Shown: piece by piece, positions 1 through 6,902 of the stretch | Layout: the number at the start of each line of letters is the position of its first letter | Numbering within the stretch: position 1 is the first letter of the stretch | From: Flavisolibacter longurius | GTDB taxonomy: Bacteria; Bacteroidota; Bacteroidia; Chitinophagales; Chitinophagaceae | Length of the DNA: 64,000 nt | Direction of reading: 5' to 3' | Assembly (NCBI GenBank): GCA_014163555.1 | Contig: JACJGO010000011.1 | Coordinates: forward strand, 62,001 to 126,000 | Notes under the pieces: generated by a model | What the model saw: only the letters and a program-made list of their open reading frames with translations | What the model was told of the DNA's origin: nothing | Database searches by the model: none | Position numbers and translations under genes: made by a program

Positions 1-3000
1 GTTCATCTCGTTTTCGCTCACCATCACGCTGCCATCTCCGCCGCTACGCCCTTTAACTTCAATGTACCGTTTCAGTGCAAAAGGGCTTACGCTTCGTATA
101 TCATAGCCTTCGTTGTTGGCAGATACATCCTGGGGCTGCCATCCGTCATTCTGTTCATACTCCATTGCCACCTGCATGGCAATTGCTTCGGCTTCGTCGT
201 CCCGGCTCATTCCATAATGACCTGCATACTCCACCTGTGTAAGTGGCACGACGTAAGCACAGCCAAGCACTTCCGGCGCTTTGGGGCTTAACTGCATCAT
301 CAGTTCTAAATTGGCCAAGCGGCTATTCTTTTTGCTTATCAGCTCATTAATGCGCTCCTGCTTCTTGAATATCTTTTCCTGCACTTTGGTATCGCCATAA
401 AGCACCTTTGTTTGCAGTTCCTGGATTTGGATTTGCAAATCCATGATGACTTGCGTAAAAGCCGTTTCAAGGTATTTTTTACGGTCTTGCAGGTCTTTTA
501 GAATATGCTGCCGGGTATGTTCAAACTGCTGTTCGGTAATGTGCTCAAAGCTCCATTGCACCACTTCATCATTATTGATGACCGCCGGCGGGTCAATGGG
601 CTTTGTAAAATCGGCCGGCGCATGAAGGTCAATAAACTTAGCAGGAGAAGTAACATGAAAGTCTCCGGCTTTGTCCTGGTACACCATTACCAAATGCTCG
701 TCAGCAATGCTATCGTCTTTTTTGCTGGGCCGGTTGTCAACTATCTGCGACTTTACAAAGAAGGCGAAATAGTCTTCTTTGTCATCGGGAGAAATCAGGA
801 TAGTGCCTTTCAGCATGTCTTCCTTGTATTGTTTGCGAACGACATTTATCAAACTATCAAACACCGCATTGCCAGGATTGATGTAATGCACTTTACCTAA
901 ATCACCAATGTTCTGGTAATCCAAAAACACCTGTTTGTCGAAGCAAAACAAGAGGGACTTGATAGCATCGTAGTGTATACGATACGTGTCTCTTAACTCC
1001 GCAATAATTGCATCGGGCATTTTGTCAATGCGGTAAATGGACTGCCGCAATTCTTTGAACTGACCGCCTAAATGCGCAAATGCTTTCTCGAAAAACAGCC
1101 GGATATAAATTGGCTGCAGCCGCTTTTCATCGGAGTTTTCCTTCAGGGTTTTAGCATCCCGGTAGTCAACGGAACTGTGGGCCAGCTTCTCTTTTTGCTC
1201 TTTGATTTTTTCGGTAAACTTTAGCTTCAAGGTTTCATCATCCTGCGCCAGAAAGTCATCCAATGCTGTGGACTTACCGTTGAAAACAGAATTGATAATG
1301 GCATCAAGGCTTACGTTTTCCAATACGTCCTGAATAACATCATAAACCCTATCGTCGCCCATTCCTTCACGGATAATATCCAGCTTTGTAAGAAGGCGTT
1401 CCAACACTTTCCCTTCTTTGGTATTGCTTGCCACCATATTAAACACCAACACATTCTGTTTCTGTCCATACCTGTGTATGCGTCCCATGCGCTGCTCTAA
1501 CCGGTTGGGGTTCCAAGGAATATCCCAGTTAATGAGCAAACGGCAAAACTGCAAGTTGATACCTTCCCCTGCGGCATCTGTCGCTATCAGGATTTGTGTT
1601 TCCGGCTTGGCAAACGCCCATTGCGCCTCTCTTCGTTCATCAACGGATTTCCCACCGTGAATGGTTGCCACGTTATATCCGCCGCTCTTTGTTAAACGTT
1701 GTTCCAGGTAAACCAAGGTGTCTTTATGCTCGGTGAATATGACGAGTTTTTCGCCATGCTCCAAAACACCTTGTGATTTGAGTAAATCCTGCAATTGCTG
1801 AAATTTCTTTTCCTCCTGCTTCCGGTTGTACAGGTTCTCTGCCATCTCGTACAGCTTTTTTACTTCGTTTGCTTCCTGCTGTATCTCCTGCAAACTTTTG
1901 GCAGTGGTAAAGAGCTTGAACTTCCGTGGGTCGGAAAGAATATTTTCCAAGGCGTCTCTTTCTTCATCTTCCAACTCTTCGTAGTCTTCAATATTGTCCA
2001 CATCAAAACCTTCTAATTTGTGACGCTGCGACCAGAGGTTTGGATTTTTGTTTACCTCATCTACAATACCCTGTAATGCCTGCCATCTGCGGAACAACGT
2101 GTTTTTAATGGCGAATATGGAACTCACCAATCTCCGCTGCATCACCGTTAAGGCTAAGGAAACGTGTATGTTTTTTGTCTCCGATGCTTCCTCTTTTTTC
2201 TTGGTCAAGTACCGTGTTACGGCATCGTATAACTCCTTCTCTTCCGGGGTTAATTCATAAGCGACCGTTTTTGTAAAACGCTCTTTGTATAGAGGATTGC
2301 CCTGCCAGTCCTTCATGTCTTCTTTAAGCCTTCTAATGAAGAACTTATTTATGCCATTGTGCTCTAATTCTTTTACACGGGTAGACGCTATTTCATCTGT
2401 AGCAAAAATGTCTTCGTCTAAAAGCTGAAGCAGCTTTTTAAACGTATCGGTTCTTCCCCTGTGCGGCGTAGCGGTCAACAATAAAATATGTTCGCATTGT
2501 TGCGAAAGTATCTGTGCTGCTTTATAGCGTTGCGATAAGTATTGTTTTGCGCCGTAATCGTAAGCGGAAAGCTTATGACACTCATCAAATACAATCAAGT
2601 CCCAGTGAGAATTGCTTGCCACATTTAAAACATCCTCCCGACACATAAAGTCAATTGAAGTCACAATACGTGACGTGGTGTGAAAAACGTTGGGGTCGGA
2701 AGAAAACAAACTTCGATTGACCAATGTGAATGGGATGTTGAATTTGATTGCCATTTCATCTTCCTGCCATTGCTTTGTTAACCCGCCGGGAGTGATAACC
2801 AAAATCCTTTCTACCAGGCCACGCATGATAAGTTCTTTTATGAGCAAGCCGGTCATGATTGTCTTACCGGCTCCAGTATCATCCGCTAAGAGAAACCGGA
2901 TTTTTGGCAGCGGTAACAGAAATTTATATACAGCTTCAACCTGGTGCGGTAATGGGTCAACGATACTACAATTAACAGCAAACAAAGGGTCGAACTGATA

Positions 3001-3255
3001 GGCCGAATTGATACGTTCCGCTTCCGCAAACAACGAAAACTTTACAGGGTCACCTTTGAAATTGAAAGTTCCTTCTTCAGTTAACACTTCCAGGTTGTCA
3101 AACTCTGCTCCGGTGATAACTTTTGTATTGGCCCGATTGGTACTGACACCTGTAAATGATATGGAAACGCTTGCCCCAAGCTTTTGAACCTTATTAATCA
3201 CAACGGGTTCCGAAGGGATTAAATTCTTTATAATTTGGCCAGTTTGTACAGGCAT
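1..3255 (-). CDS. SNF2/RapA-type DEAD/DEAH helicase with C-terminal DUF3883-like nuclease motif, partial at left edge
   Basis: The frame is open from an ATG at 3255 to the left edge, giving at least 1085 residues. Seen: a Walker A motif DDTGAGKT at about residues 125-132, a DECH box at about 224-227, the motif LLTATPHRG, and the motif V/VI block ending RMGRIHRYGQ. Near the edge GYDIRSV..., followed by YIEVKGRSG, resembles the core of DUF3883, a PD-(D/E)xK-like fold with ExK. This organisation is known in defence-associated helicases, such as the DrmD-type helicases of DISARM class 1, where SF2 translocation on DNA is the expected activity. It probably forms a two-gene operon with the 290-residue gene ending 20 bases upstream. 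The start was chosen because it is the first ATG after that gene. The C-terminus lies outside the window. The helicase call is secure; the exact defence type is inference. Confidence 0.9.
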   Translation of the reverse strand, partial: MPVQTGQIIKNLIPSEPVVINKVQKLGASVSISFTGVSTNRANTKVITGAEFDNLEVLTEEGTFNFKGDPVKFSLFAEAERINSAYQFDPLFAVNCSIVDPLPHQVEAVYKFLLPLPKIRFLLADDTGAGKTIMTGLLIKELIMRGLVERILVITPGGLTKQWQEDEMAIKFNIPFTLVNRSLFSSDPNVFHTTSRIVTSIDFMCREDVLNVASNSHWDLIVFDECHKLSAYDYGAKQYLSQRYKAAQILSQQCEHILLLTATPHRGRTDTFKKLLQLLDEDIFATDEIASTRVKELEHNGINKFFIRRLKEDMKDWQGNPLYKERFTKTVAYELTPEEKELYDAVTRYLTKKKEEASETKNIHVSLALTVMQRRLVSSIFAIKNTLFRRWQALQGIVDEVNKNPNLWSQRHKLEGFDVDNIEDYEELEDEERDALENILSDPRKFKLFTTAKSLQEIQQEANEVKKLYEMAENLYNRKQEEKKFQQLQDLLKSQGVLEHGEKLVIFTEHKDTLVYLEQRLTKSGGYNVATIHGGKSVDERREAQWAFAKPETQILIATDAAGEGINLQFCRLLINWDIPWNPNRLEQRMGRIHRYGQKQNVLVFNMVASNTKEGKVLERLLTKLDIIREGMGDDRVYDVIQDVLENVSLDAIINSVFNGKSTALDDFLAQDDETLKLKFTEKIKEQKEKLAHSSVDYRDAKTLKENSDEKRLQPIYIRLFFEKAFAHLGGQFKELRQSIYRIDKMPDAIIAELRDTYRIHYDAIKSLLFCFDKQVFLDYQNIGDLGKVHYINPGNAVFDSLINVVRKQYKEDMLKGTILISPDDKEDYFAFFVKSQIVDNRPSKKDDSIADEHLVMVYQDKAGDFHVTSPAKFIDLHAPADFTKPIDPPAVINNDEVVQWSFEHITEQQFEHTRQHILKDLQDRKKYLETAFTQVIMDLQIQIQELQTKVLYGDTKVQEKIFKKQERINELISKKNSRLANLELMMQLSPKAPEVLGCAYVVPLTQVEYAGHYGMSRDDEAEAIAMQVAMEYEQNDGWQPQDVSANNEGYDIRSVSPFALKRYIEVKGRSGGDGSVMVSENEMN

Positions 3256-3274
3256 ATATCAGATAGTTTTGGCT

Positions 3275-4147
3275 TTAGATAAGTATGTTCTTAAACTGTG
3301 CATTCAACTTTTCAAAGTCCACATTGCCTTCAATAAGATGTTTGTCTATATTGAACTCTTCGGGGCTTTGTGCTGTGTGCAGTAGCTTTCTTTTCCCGTT
3401 CAGGCCAATGGAAATGTTTCCACCACCATCGGCGCTGTAATCTACAAGACTGTTTACAAATTTGCTTTCTTCTTTTATTTCCAGGTAGCCGTCTTTATCG
3501 GCATTAAGCTGCACCTTGGTTTTATGGGTGTTTGTATCCTCATAAAGCTGCTTCAGGTTCAGTTGAAGGTTCTTGGAAATAGTCGCCATATTGGGCGAAA
3601 TCAAATCAAATGTGACCTGCTTTATTTGTTTTGGATATTTACGAACTAAATTCCAAAACTCCTTTTTATCGTAAATAGGTTCAGTATAAAAGGATAGGTT
3701 GTACTGCCGCAATTGTTCTTCCAAAGTTTCTTGGATGATGTTGCTTACCGTTTTAATTTCCTTAAAAGCAGCAGGATTGGTTTGTATAGCAATCTTTTGT
3801 ACATCAGGGTCGTTGTTGAACGCAATCAGCATATTGGGATATGTGTCCTCCGTATGCGGCGAAAGGTCTTTGGAGTAAAGTGTGGTACTCCGTTTCACGC
3901 CAAGACGGTAATAGGTCATTACTCCATCAGTGTACAAAAACTTCGATGTAAGTTCGGAGGAGCCACCTTTCAGCCGGAACTTCTCATTGGTAAGTACCCG
4001 CTGCAGTATATTGTTCTTGTCTGCCCGTATCTGGTCAGCCGTTTCGTACTTCTCAAACATGTTAATGGGCAGTGTCTTATCTACCAGCAGTTGGTAGCGG
4101 AATACCTCAAAAGAAGCAGTTGAGTTGGTTGGTTGTGCTTTTGCCAT
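3275..4147 (-). CDS. Unrecognised 290-residue partner of the helicase
   Basis: I do not recognise this family. It is a soluble protein without signal peptide or membrane segment. A distinctive stretch at about residues 155-245 contains FYTEPIYDKKEFW, then FDLISPNMATISKNL, then ADKDGYLEI and a glycine-rich DGGGNISIGL. It is the first gene of the minus-strand operon and is followed 19 bases later by the helicase, so a joint role is likely. Its neighbours (helicase/nuclease, serine recombinase, tRNA) suggest a defence or mobile-element function, but nothing in the sequence gives an enzymatic activity. It reads divergently from the MerR-like gene, with a 111-base A+T-rich intergenic region that probably holds both promoters. 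Confidence 0.85.
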   Translation of the reverse strand: MAKAQPTNSTASFEVFRYQLLVDKTLPINMFEKYETADQIRADKNNILQRVLTNEKFRLKGGSSELTSKFLYTDGVMTYYRLGVKRSTTLYSKDLSPHTEDTYPNMLIAFNNDPDVQKIAIQTNPAAFKEIKTVSNIIQETLEEQLRQYNLSFYTEPIYDKKEFWNLVRKYPKQIKQVTFDLISPNMATISKNLQLNLKQLYEDTNTHKTKVQLNADKDGYLEIKEESKFVNSLVDYSADGGGNISIGLNGKRKLLHTAQSPEEFNIDKHLIEGNVDFEKLNAQFKNILI

Positions 4148-4221
4148 ACGTATATGGAAAATTAAAGAAACGAATGTAAATAATTATTCAGTAAAAACTT
4201 ACCGAACGGTATAATTTTTTG

Positions 4222-4258: not shown

Positions 4259-5092
4259 ATGCAGCAGCACGAAAAAAGCAACAACAATGTGGTTTCCCTT
4301 TACCGGAACGAGGCATTTGATAATGGCTTTTACCAGTATTTCGCTGACGTGCAACAAAATAAGATTTCCCGGCTATTAAATGATACTGACAGGAATATAA
4401 AGTTTGATACTATCACTTACCGGCAATTGAATAGTTGGGAAAAAGAAGGGTTACTAACCGTTCAACGGGAAGGAAGGGAATGGCGTCGCTTTAGCATTAT
4501 TGACGCTCTTTGGGTAAAAATTGTAAAAGAACTCCGGGACTTTGGTATGAGCCGGGAGCAGTTGCGCAATGTAAAAAGCTGCCTGGAATTTGAAAGTGCC
4601 AGGTGCGGTGTCTCGATGCCGATGCTGGAGTTTTATACGGCTTTTGTGATTGGTGCAAAAATGCCAGTGTTGATTTTGATTTTTAAAGATGGTGTGGCAG
4701 TGCCTTGCAGTTATACGCAATTTAAGGTGGCGAAGGAACGGGTAGGCATGGACAACCATATTCAGCTTAATCTGAACGACCTGTTGCAGGAAATGTTTCC
4801 GGATGTGGATTTAAAACCCTCTATGAAATTGGATGCGCCCTTGTCAGTAAATGAATTGGAATTGCTGGCATATCTCGGTTTGGGCAAGTTTGAGACCATT
4901 ACGGTTAAATTCAACAATGGCAAGATGGAGCAGTTTGAAGGCGTACAGCGGATAAAGGCAAAGCGGCGCATCCAGGAAATTATGCAGGAACACAAGTATC
5001 AAAACATTATGATACAAGAAGAGGATGGCAACATAACAGCCATCTTTCAAACGATAAAAAAGAAGTTTAGCAAAGGGAGTAACCCTACGTAA
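4259..5092 (+). CDS. MerR-like winged-helix DNA-binding protein of the integrated element
   Basis: This is a protein of 277 residues. Residues about 50-100 read like a MerR-type helix-turn-helix with wing: ITYRQLNSWEKEGLL, a basic REGREWRRF stretch, then a helix with LRDFGMSREQL. The C-terminal half is unlike known effector domains of MerR regulators and ends in a lysine-rich tail. It stands 54 bases before a small ORF and the serine recombinase in the same direction, so the three are probably co-transcribed. It is divergent from the helicase operon. It could control the operon, the recombinase, or recombination directionality; these roles are inference. The MerR-like fold is moderately secure. 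Confidence 0.85.
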   Translation: MQQHEKSNNNVVSLYRNEAFDNGFYQYFADVQQNKISRLLNDTDRNIKFDTITYRQLNSWEKEGLLTVQREGREWRRFSIIDALWVKIVKELRDFGMSREQLRNVKSCLEFESARCGVSMPMLEFYTAFVIGAKMPVLILIFKDGVAVPCSYTQFKVAKERVGMDNHIQLNLNDLLQEMFPDVDLKPSMKLDAPLSVNELELLAYLGLGKFETITVKFNNGKMEQFEGVQRIKAKRRIQEIMQEHKYQNIMIQEEDGNITAIFQTIKKKFSKGSNPT

Positions 5093-5146: not shown

Positions 5147-5341
5147 ATGCTTAGTATTGAAAAGTGCAAGAAAATTCTTGCACAAAATGGAAAACAATGT
5201 ACCGATGAAGAAGTAAAACAAATTAGAGAACTCCTTTACAAGGTTGGACACTTAGACTATTTATTGTTCACGCAAAAACTGAAGAACGATGCCGAATGCA
5301 ATCATCTACACCAGGGTGTCAACGGACGAGCAAGCCGATAA
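5147..5341 (+). CDS. Small conserved-type protein upstream of the serine recombinase
   Basis: The product has 64 residues, MLSIEKCKKILAQNG... followed by an acidic/basic helix TDEEVKQIRELLY. Small ORFs beginning with this kind of SIEKCKKIL sequence are often seen just before serine recombinases in Bacteroidota mobile elements, which supports it as a real gene. It overlaps the recombinase start by 53 bases in another frame, so its last 17 or so residues are read from DNA also encoding the recombinase catalytic start. The function is unknown; translational coupling with the recombinase is plausible. Confidence 0.65.
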   Translation: MLSIEKCKKILAQNGKQCTDEEVKQIRELLYKVGHLDYLLFTQKLKNDAECNHLHQGVNGRASR

Positions 5342-6902
5342 GGGCTACAGCCTACGAGACCAAAAGGACAGGCTGGAAAAATACTGTGCTATCAAAGGGA
5401 TAGAGGTTATTGCTCATTTTCAGGATGACCATTCGGCAAAAACGTTTGACCGTCCAGAGTTTATTAAGCTCTTAGACTATGCAAAAAAGAACAAGCAGGA
5501 TATAGACTATGTGTTTATCGTGAAGTGGGACCGCTTCTCCCGCAACACTACAGATGCCTATAACATGCTAAAGACGTTTAGCAAAATAGGCATAGAAGTA
5601 AATGCTGCAGAGCAGCATATTGATTTTAGTGTGCCGGAAAACAAGTTGATGCTTGCCTTTTATCTAACAGCACCGGAAGTGGAAAATGACAGAAGAGCGT
5701 TAAATACGTCAAGTGGTATGCGCCGGGCAAAGCTGGAAGGAAGGTGGGTAGCAACGGCGCCTTTTGGATACAAGTTCGGAAGGGATGAAAGCAACAAGCC
5801 TATTTTAGTCAAGAATGACAAAGCCGAAATCGTAAAGGAGGCGTTTGAAATGTACGCCACCGGTGTATATGACCGGGAAGAAGTAAGAAAAAAGCTGAAG
5901 CCAAAAGGAATGACCCTAAGCAGGGCGGCTTTCTGGAAAATGATACATAATGTGGTCTACTGTGGGCTAATCAAAGTGGAAGCCGACCAGTATGGGCCAG
6001 AAAGCACCGTAAAGGCAGTACATGAGGGAATTATCTCTGAAGAGCTGTTTGAAAAGGTACAGTTTGTTGCTTCCGGAAAGAAAATGGTAAAGGCGAAGCC
6101 TAAAAAAGTAACAGAAGCTCTGCCCTTGCGTGGTTATTTGGTTTGCAAGTGTTGCGGAATGAATATGACTGGAAGCGCCTCAAAAGGCAATGGCGGCAAA
6201 TACTTCTACTATCACGGTCAGCCGGGATGTAGGGAAAGGCACAAAGCGGATATAGTGCATGAAAGCTTTTCTTCCTGGCTGGACAGTCTGACTATTGACC
6301 CGGCAATTGCTGAATTGTATTTGGCTGTCATGCAGGATATTTTTAAAACAGAGGAAGGTGACAGGAATAAAGAAATAGGCAGATTGGACAGGGAGATTTC
6401 TGAAAAGCAGCAAATGCTGGCGGCAGCTACTGAAAAATTTGTAAATAATGATTTGGATAAGTTCAGCTTTAATGTGCTCCGTGAGAACACTAACAAAAAG
6501 CTCAATGGGCTAAGAAGGCAAAAGCAGGACCTGCTGGAAAATGATGATGCTTTTGGCAAGTACATGAAATACGGCATGAGCCTTCTAACCAACCTGAAGG
6601 GGTATTATGAGGGTGCTTCTCTGGAAGGAAAGCAGAAATTCCTTGGTTCGATATTTCCTGAAAAACTGATAATTGAGGACGGAAAGTATCGAACCACTAC
6701 ACCAAGTGATTTCCTCTCGCTAATATGCAGTATTGACAAGTGTTTCAGCGGATTGGAAAAAGAAAAGGGCGGCATTTCTGCGCACCCTTCTCGTAAGGTA
6801 GCCTCGACAGGAATCGAACCTGTATCTGGAGCTTCGGAAACTCTTATACTATCCATTGTACTACGAGGCCAAAAAAAGCAGTTCAACACCTTGTGCTCAT
6901 AG
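5289..6902 (+). CDS. Large serine recombinase (integrase of the element)
   Basis: This 537-residue protein catalyses site-specific integration and excision. Domains in order: an N-terminal resolvase domain with the catalytic serine in YTRVSTDEQ (about residue 10) and arginines in DRLEKYC and KWDRFSRNT; a recombinase domain around residues 150-250; a zinc ribbon with CKCCGMNMTG and a later CRERH; then a coiled coil rich in K/E/Q (about 365-430). It is the last gene of the element before the host tRNA. Its final 36 or so residues, from about GGISAHPSR, are encoded across the antisense tRNA-Arg gene and its flank. That part probably does not belong to the original protein, and the C-terminus was likely changed by integration. 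The catalytic part looks intact. Confidence 0.95.
   Translation: MPNAIIYTRVSTDEQADKGYSLRDQKDRLEKYCAIKGIEVIAHFQDDHSAKTFDRPEFIKLLDYAKKNKQDIDYVFIVKWDRFSRNTTDAYNMLKTFSKIGIEVNAAEQHIDFSVPENKLMLAFYLTAPEVENDRRALNTSSGMRRAKLEGRWVATAPFGYKFGRDESNKPILVKNDKAEIVKEAFEMYATGVYDREEVRKKLKPKGMTLSRAAFWKMIHNVVYCGLIKVEADQYGPESTVKAVHEGIISEELFEKVQFVASGKKMVKAKPKKVTEALPLRGYLVCKCCGMNMTGSASKGNGGKYFYYHGQPGCRERHKADIVHESFSSWLDSLTIDPAIAELYLAVMQDIFKTEEGDRNKEIGRLDREISEKQQMLAAATEKFVNNDLDKFSFNVLRENTNKKLNGLRRQKQDLLENDDAFGKYMKYGMSLLTNLKGYYEGASLEGKQKFLGSIFPEKLIIEDGKYRTTTPSDFLSLICSIDKCFSGLEKEKGGISAHPSRKVASTGIEPVSGASETLILSIVLRGQKKQFNTLCS
6799..6870 (-). tRNA. tRNA-Arg, anticodon CCG
   Basis: Read on the minus strand the 72-base sequence folds as a tRNA. 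The acceptor stem is GGCCTCG with CGAGGCT (ending in a G-U pair), the D arm is GTAC...GTAT, the anticodon loop is TTCCGAA with CCG, and the T arm is ACAGG-TTCGATT-CCTGT. The anticodon stem has one A-C mismatch at its base. CCA is not fully encoded. It lies antisense within the reading frame of the serine recombinase, marking it as the probable chromosomal target of the element to its left. Confidence 0.9.

Follow-up and report, generated by a model that had tools for sequence, protein, structure and literature searches.

The Hma system, which is named in PMC8565338, appears to be the closest described relative of the defence genes reported here. PMC12839542 presents Hma as a Type-1 DUF499-centred BREX-related system with a helicase-nuclease effector. 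There it consists of an SNF2 helicase with a C-terminal PD-(D/E)XK-like NOV_C domain, a DUF1156 methylase and a HEPN-fused DUF499 ATPase, and the HEPN fusion is counted in 1370 of 2446 taxa. In 2013, operons were described in which a HEPN-DUF499 protein occurs together with an SNF2 helicase that carries a fused DUF3883, regarded as a restriction endonuclease (REase) domain (PMC3710099). We have analyzed a 64,000-nucleotide stretch of the Flavisolibacter longurius genome (5.66 Mb, 58 contigs), namely positions 62001-126000 of contig JACJGO010000011.1 (C2), called the window throughout. Positions 1-4147 of the window carry a helicase gene preceded by a gene for a 290-residue protein (the 290-aa gene). 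On balance we regard this part as the promoter-proximal end of a seven-gene defence operon which is the cargo of an element of about 22 kb near a tRNA-Arg(ccg) gene. The 290-aa gene belongs with the head of this element and not with Hma.

Ten proteins were scanned with PADLOC, NCBIfam and Pfam, and the best 25 families per protein were considered. An earlier note on this DNA had described a DrmD-style helicase and the 290-residue gene; both genes were confirmed, and the motifs GAGKT(128), DECH(224) and RMGRIHR(589) were located by script and YIEVKG in the translation. The helicase part of that description stands. The DrmD part does not, as the protein reached 388.9 bits at an NCBIfam DrmD cut-off of 610, while PADLOC detected HmaA with an E-value of 6e-207 across residues 4-1114. 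Pfam domains of the helicase are NOV_C, Helicase_C, ResIII and SNF2. The C-terminus had been called DUF3883-type; this agrees with NOV_C (PF13020) on residues 1022-1110 (E 2.1e-19), since we take NOV_C and DUF3883 to be one domain under two names. The NOV_C domain and YIEVKG point to a possible C-terminal nuclease. The methylase was detected as HmaB (PADLOC 1.5e-127; PF06634 2.3e-21; motifs DPPY(633) and FAGGG(234)) and the ATPase as HmaC (PADLOC 5e-141; PF04465 1.8e-50; HEPN_Swt1 1.6e-10; HEPN motif RNVVAH(106)). Judged by these matches, the cargo is recognizable as the three core genes of Hma, an already known, restriction-modification-like system of the Type-1 DUF499 BREX-related kind. The window operon shares with Hma the helicase, methylase and HEPN-fused ATPase, whereas it differs in an AbiEi-like/nucleotidyltransferase pair with overlapping frames between hmaA and hmaB, in an SDH/ClpP-like protease gene after hmaC and in the 290-aa gene ahead. 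The nucleotidyltransferase was called from a weak PADLOC AbiEii match (9.3e-4) plus the motifs GAQS and DID.

The 290-aa protein gave no NCBIfam or PADLOC match at E ≤ 0.01, no Pfam or PHROGs match at E ≤ 0.1 and no PDB sequence match at E ≤ 1. Genome searches, with the window genome included in each count, revealed homologues in 3 of the 298 genomes searched in the order, one of them weak, in 2 of 395 in the phylum and in 9 of 394 in the family, where three matches have an E-value of 2.5e-14 or weaker. Scanning 84,980 species genomes for a peptide pattern yielded eight loci, a number to be taken as a lower bound. Nine distinct loci were compiled from the pattern-scan loci minus L015, a near-copy of L014, plus the window and G771; G830, G728 and G205 repeat L014, L017 and L020 by position and are not separate loci. 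A further match, in G687 (E 1.1e-8), lies outside the nine. Matches in G860 (E 9.5e-5) and G746 (8.7e-4), with surroundings of housekeeping type by appearance, were not counted as relatives, and a viral match in L012 (39%, 57 residues) was set aside as it lies within a 4182-aa phage open reading frame (ORF).

The eight other distinct loci are headed by homologues 48-78% identical to the 290-aa protein of the window. In all nine the next gene, 4-60 nt downstream, is of restriction-modification (R-M), helicase or nuclease type. This gene encodes HmaA in the window, a YhcG/DUF1016 nuclease in L014, HsdR in L016 and a phospholipase D (PLD)-SNF2 helicase in L017, L018 and L020. HsdM follows in L019 and, by blastp similarity (30% over 267 residues), in G771, and an N6_N4 methylase in L021, where the operon was read as Type III R-M; altogether the downstream genes are of five kinds. 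On the other side, a MerR-like gene and a serine recombinase gene are found divergent from the 290-aa gene in eight of the nine loci (in L017 and L018 the contig ends within the recombinase gene). Pairwise identity among six loci compared was 47-78% for the 290-aa protein, 49-70% for the MerR-like protein and, L020 excepted, 50-80% for the recombinase; the MerR-like protein of the window is 49-67% identical to its counterparts in the five other cassettes compared. An ORF of 50-64 aa is present between the MerR-like and recombinase genes in 8/8 cassettes read, with a divergent type in L020, and is possibly a candidate for a recombination directionality factor or a control protein. The 290-aa gene thus marks the control end, because it recurs together with MerR, small ORF and recombinase while the cargo differs. 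The gene may also serve as a marker: operons that follow it immediately are candidate defence systems.

HmaB and HmaC were searched in 238 genomes each of the order, and five close Hma relatives were found (G230, G002, G097, G147, G184). The upstream side of G184 could not be assessed because its hmaB ORF is partial at the contig start (591 aa). In the four relatives having all three core genes, the core proteins are 46-85% identical. A homologue of the 290-aa protein was absent from the fetched stretches of all four (blastp 1e-4), and the same search gave 0/4 for homologues of the MerR-like, AbiEi, nucleotidyltransferase and SDH-protease proteins. Three of the four carry other genes at the hmaA-hmaB and/or hmaB-hmaC junction, some of them ATPase-like by appearance. 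Furthermore, three of these relatives have a shorter HmaC (922-933 aa), from which the HEPN domain is therefore probably missing.

The intergenic regions between the divergent genes measure 65-111 nt in eight cassettes. The palindrome TTACC-N4-GGTA occurs exactly in six of them (window, L014, L016, L017, L018 and L019), and variants are present in L020 (TTACTATTCGGTAA) and G771 (TTACGGTAAGGTA). In an alignment of seven intergenic regions, which leaves out L019 as identical to L018, 8 of 14 invariant columns fall in the palindrome. The pattern TTACCNNNNGGTA matches the 64-kb window once, at 0.33 expected, and at least one match was obtained in 26 of 100 shuffles; the weight of the palindrome rests on its recurrence at the same place, not on the single-window count. 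Among 127 loci examined, 19 contain the pattern, several of these being overlapping copies of one place, and it is also found at unrelated positions in L012, L021, L045, L083, L120 and L121. TAnnTTTG-like boxes, which we take to be the Bacteroidota -7 box, flank the palindrome in several loci. As read from the sequence, the palindrome is a candidate operator common to both divergent genes. One control end with this candidate operator precedes at least four kinds of operon, and the 290-aa gene alone a fifth.

A first structure model of the 290-aa protein from 8 sequences was poor (predicted local distance difference test, pLDDT, 53); a second from 14 sequences reached pLDDT 74.1 and a predicted template modeling score (pTM) of 0.72. 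With VIA-align the second model resembled Chl4/CENP-N, RdgC, RexA and Iml3. RexA, RdgC, IML3 and CHL4 have a common fold (PMC11077077). The predicted fold of the 290-aa protein accordingly resembles the RexA/RdgC/Chl4/Iml3 DNA-clamp fold, the scores being no proof of it. In a viral structure library, three uncharacterised phage proteins were found at E ≤ 0.001 (best 1.2e-19, TM-score 0.71). A protein of 142-187 aa with transmembrane (TM)-like segments, four in five cases and three in the sixth, follows each of six distant relatives of the 290-aa protein.

Two of these six, in an E. coli prophage and in a Vibrio phage, form with their partners a RexAB-like two-gene unit annotated as hypothetical. 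The two units encode proteins of 298 and 297 aa plus 154 and 161 aa, respectively, the latter with four TM-like segments. The E. coli prophage unit adjoins an integrase gene, and its DNA was detected by megablast in 32 of 5426 complete genomes. The prophage/phage unit is a candidate exclusion system. Scans of viral contigs with two relatives and the Vibrio protein gave no matches. An assignment of the 290-aa family and of the relatives with TM partners to Kiwa/KwaB was dropped at the level of sequence models, as no Kiwa model was among the PADLOC matches at E ≤ 10 of ten relatives and partners. CP099174.1 (PLSDB, 1.31 Mb), labelled an E. coli plasmid, is probably a mislabelled part of a chromosome; the stretch read carries chromosomal genes such as icd, purB, phoPQ, mnmA and potABC.

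From the predicted fold and the gene's position, the 290-aa protein may be an orphan DNA-binding protein of RexA/RdgC type which, tentatively, works as a switch at the palindrome together with the MerR-like protein. We slightly favour the explanation that the two proteins, on a common operator, form a control switch between the mobility genes and the defence operon. Such a switch would act between MerR - small ORF - recombinase on one side and the defence operon on the other and could, e.g., set the time at which a restriction cargo that is potentially toxic is expressed once the element has entered or been excised. Concerning the cargo, going by its families, HmaB would methylate self DNA, HmaC and the HmaA helicase-nuclease would attack unmodified incoming DNA, and the HEPN domain, perhaps with the AbiE-like pair, might serve as backup. 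The head is likely a control module able to take up various DNA-targeting defences, in an SCC-like arrangement (staphylococcal cassette chromosome, SCC).

Several findings speak against such a cassette with a switch at its head. The L020 recombinase shares only 25-28% identity with the others, and therefore recombinases are exchanged too. L021 possesses a 290-aa homologue with neither a MerR nor a recombinase gene adjoining. VIA-align Z values for RexA, RdgC and Iml3 (6.5-6.7) are in a range common for models without a clear match, the best, for Chl4 (Z 8.6), is barely above that range, and the RexA alignment has a root-mean-square deviation of 9.6. Foldseek gave no PDB match for the model at E ≤ 0.001, and hhalign with lambda RexA returned probabilities of 0.2% and 0.6%, i.e. 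no sequence relationship. For the cargo, HmaC reached 206 bits with NCBIfam DUF499_antiphage (cut-off 1200) and HmaB 191 bits with DUF1156_antiphage (cut-off 1000). Finally, exact, mismatched and gapped searches detected no displaced tRNA half at the far end of the element.

The main rival explanation, which we consider unlikely, is an orphan RexA-like infection sensor: the 290-aa protein would detect phage DNA-protein complexes and activate the neighbouring DNA-targeting effector, and would take no part in cassette regulation. The RexA-like predicted fold and the position of the gene directly upstream of a defence-type gene in 9/9 distinct loci fit this explanation. So do the six distant relatives with small partners of 3-4 TM segments, two of them in prophage or phage, a layout which is that of the P. 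putida RexAB-type defence (PMC12894663). However, the cargo systems differ in mechanism (Type I and III-like R-M, Hma, PLD-SNF2, YhcG), and one sensor protein would therefore need to activate many effectors; moreover, the four complete Hma relatives do without the 290-aa gene. Compared with RexAB-type systems (lambda RexA/RexB; P. putida PP_5643/PP_5644), the predicted fold of the 290-aa protein resembles that of RexA, and the six distant relatives have a TM partner. The 290-aa cassettes differ in that no sequence similarity to lambda RexA was detected and in that a scan of seven cassette stretches, two of them incomplete at contig ends (L017 and L021 outside the scan), revealed no RexB-like gene; only two ORFs there (89 and 66 aa) have two or more TM-like segments.

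A role as recombination accessory factor is less probable still. Here the 290-aa protein would be an RdgC-like DNA clamp which supports the serine recombinase, gates it or shields DNA on entry, as would suit the RdgC-like predicted fold and the serine recombinase nearby in 8/9 distinct loci. Yet the gene heads the cargo operon on the strand opposite to the recombinase, it is kept in L020 in spite of the divergent recombinase there, and TM-protein partners accompany its distant relatives.

The earlier note had proposed a compact two-gene defence system of helicase and 290-residue protein. The two genes are adjacent on one strand with a 19-nt gap; nevertheless, we regard a dedicated pair as very improbable. 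The 290-aa protein is not the dedicated partner of the helicase, because none of the four complete Hma relatives carries it and because it stands with other cargo in eight other distinct loci; the co-occurrence check suggested in that note goes against the pairing. What does hold is its alternative that the genes belong to a larger system continuing to the left, as reading of the contig added five genes, including the methyltransferase looked for there; DUF1998 and phospholipase D, also looked for, were not seen among the ten proteins. A DISARM system can practically be dismissed, and was rejected by model scores and missing partner genes: the helicase matches PADLOC DrmD models with E down to 2.5e-130, but it stays below the NCBIfam DrmD cut-off, HmaA, HmaB and HmaC are the best PADLOC matches of the three core proteins, and neither a separate DrmB or DrmC protein nor DrmMI/MII was assigned among the ten proteins, as judged from the best 25 families of each.

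The features of the element are listed below. The seven genes on the minus strand appear to form one operon, as judged from their spacing. Calculated from the coordinates, gaps are 19 nt (290-aa gene/helicase), 21 nt (helicase/AbiEi), 20 nt (methylase/ATPase) and 102 nt (ATPase/protease), and the frames overlap by 29 nt (AbiEi/nucleotidyltransferase) and 4 nt (nucleotidyltransferase/methylase). The protease, encoded right after HmaC, matches the uncharacterised phage family phrog_11747 (6.8e-55). It is possibly an effector or an accessory protease.

Table. Features of the window element and of related loci (window, position in the 64,000-nt stretch; C2, L013 etc., position in the respective contig or locus).
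Feature	Coordinates	Strand	Remarks
290-aa gene	window 3275-4147 = C2:65275-66147	-	first gene of defence operon, cassette head
HmaA-type SNF2 helicase, C-terminal NOV_C (PD-(D/E)XK-like)	window 1..3255	-	truncated by window edge
Complete helicase	C2:61827-65255	-	1142 aa; 174 bases past window edge
AbiEi_2 protein	C2:60771-61805	-	344 aa; Pfam; AbiEi-like regulator, left of window
Nucleotidyltransferase-like protein	C2:59972-60799	-	275 aa; left of window
HmaB DUF1156 methylase	C2:56925-59975	-	1016 aa; left of window
HmaC HEPN_Swt1-DUF499 ATPase	C2:53623-56904	-	1093 aa; left of window
SDH/ClpP-like protease	C2:52486-53520	-	344 aa; Pfam SDH_protease; left of window
Far-end ~250-aa gene	C2:47291-48046 (window element); L043:3243-3992; L058:2145-2900		
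Palindrome TTACC-GAAC-GGTA	window 4199..4211	.	in 111-bp divergent intergenic region; candidate operator
MerR-like regulator	window 4259..5092	+	Pfam MerR_1 1.2e-7; divergent from 290-aa gene
Small ORF	window 5147..5341	+	64 aa; between MerR and recombinase
Large serine recombinase	window 5289..6902	+	Pfam Resolvase 3.6e-29, Recombinase 5.5e-10
tRNA-Arg(ccg)	window 6797..6870	-	ARAGORN; presumed attachment site, recombinase side
e19	L019:4561-7070		integrase-type and YhcG-like genes abutting cassette
RexAB-like unit, E. coli prophage	L013:14809-16144		
RexAB-like unit, Vibrio phage	L064:2178-3543		

These features bear out what the earlier note had also stated, namely that a mobile element carries a defence-type module here, with a serine recombinase and a tRNA gene as neighbours. 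The 3' end of the recombinase ORF reads through the tRNA-Arg gene in the window. Among the five loci compared for this (window, L014, L016, L019, L020; L017 and L018 end short of the tRNA point), a tRNA-Arg gene overlaps the recombinase 3' end in the window (ccg), L014 (acg), L016 (cct) and L020 (cct), and L019 has only the 3' half of a tRNA at the recombinase end. In element e19, the cassette is bordered at this tRNA-Arg 3' half by a second integrase-type gene (tyrosine recombinase by appearance) and by a YhcG-like gene, which suggests stacked elements at one site.

Of 11 marC loci found in the same genus nine were scanned, and tRNA-Arg(ccg) was present at all nine. Other serine recombinases were observed at the tRNA-Arg(ccg)-marC site in two of five same-genus relatives inspected, together with a protein 71% identical to the L016 HsdR in G304 and with a large protein, helicase-like by appearance, in G047; the remaining three relatives have ordinary-looking genes there. 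The tRNA-Arg(ccg) gene looks like an integration hotspot because other serine recombinases sit there in relatives. A clean empty site was not obtained, as the genes past the tRNA-Arg-marC junction are ordinary-looking and mutually different in three same-genus genomes.

At the far end, a gene for a protein of about 250 aa is present in four elements (window, e16, e19 and G771), with no Pfam match in the two copies scanned. Identity to the copy of the window element is 76% for G771 and 42-46% for e16 and e19. It was not seen in G205, where the contig starts at that end, or in L014 and L018, where the stretches end there. L018 and L019 have a common head and, at the far end, a near-identical gene for a 233-aa DUF3800 protein (a single difference among the residues compared) and a 98% identical 167-aa gene, and the cargo between differs. 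Gapped attachment-site scores were below the best shuffled controls for the window element, e16 and G205, and the far end of e19 contains only a partial, degenerate tRNA-like repeat. The left boundary of the window element is approximate because no far attachment site was found, and its length, about 22 kb, was estimated from the common far-end gene.

Taken together, the loci could constitute an unnamed family of mobile defence cassettes of Bacteroidota, in which a fixed control end accepts almost any DNA-targeting defence operon behind the RexA-like gene. This end would comprise a RexA/RdgC-fold protein and a MerR-like protein encoded on either side of a TTACC-N4-GGTA operator, together with the small ORF and a serine recombinase targeting tRNA-Arg. 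A RexA-like/MerR switch resembling lambda immunity would couple mobility to cargo expression, so that restriction is turned on safely after entry. We advance this wider proposal tentatively and rate it somewhat below the control switch itself. No description of the cassette or of the 290-aa family was met in the literature searched, mostly at the level of search results rather than full texts. Two open questions are concerned: how mobile restriction is delivered without killing the new cell, and how defence islands exchange at one site. Since one control end stands ahead of several kinds of operon, both become testable. If the fold holds, the RexA/RdgC DNA clamp, associated with lambda exclusion and recombination control, would be linked to mobile restriction cargo.

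Compared with known systems, the window operon shares with DISARM a related SNF2 helicase core, whereas the partner genes of DISARM were not seen and methylase and ATPase are of Hma type. The SCC integration site is rlmH. With the SCC/Ccr elements of staphylococci and enterococci, the window cassette shares a large serine recombinase at one end and exchangeable cargo, and Ccr models are among the NCBIfam matches of the window recombinase, far below cut-off (CcrB 109 of 900 bits). In contrast to these elements, the cassette is found at a tRNA-Arg site, carries a head of MerR-like gene, 290-aa gene and palindrome, and belongs to Bacteroidota.

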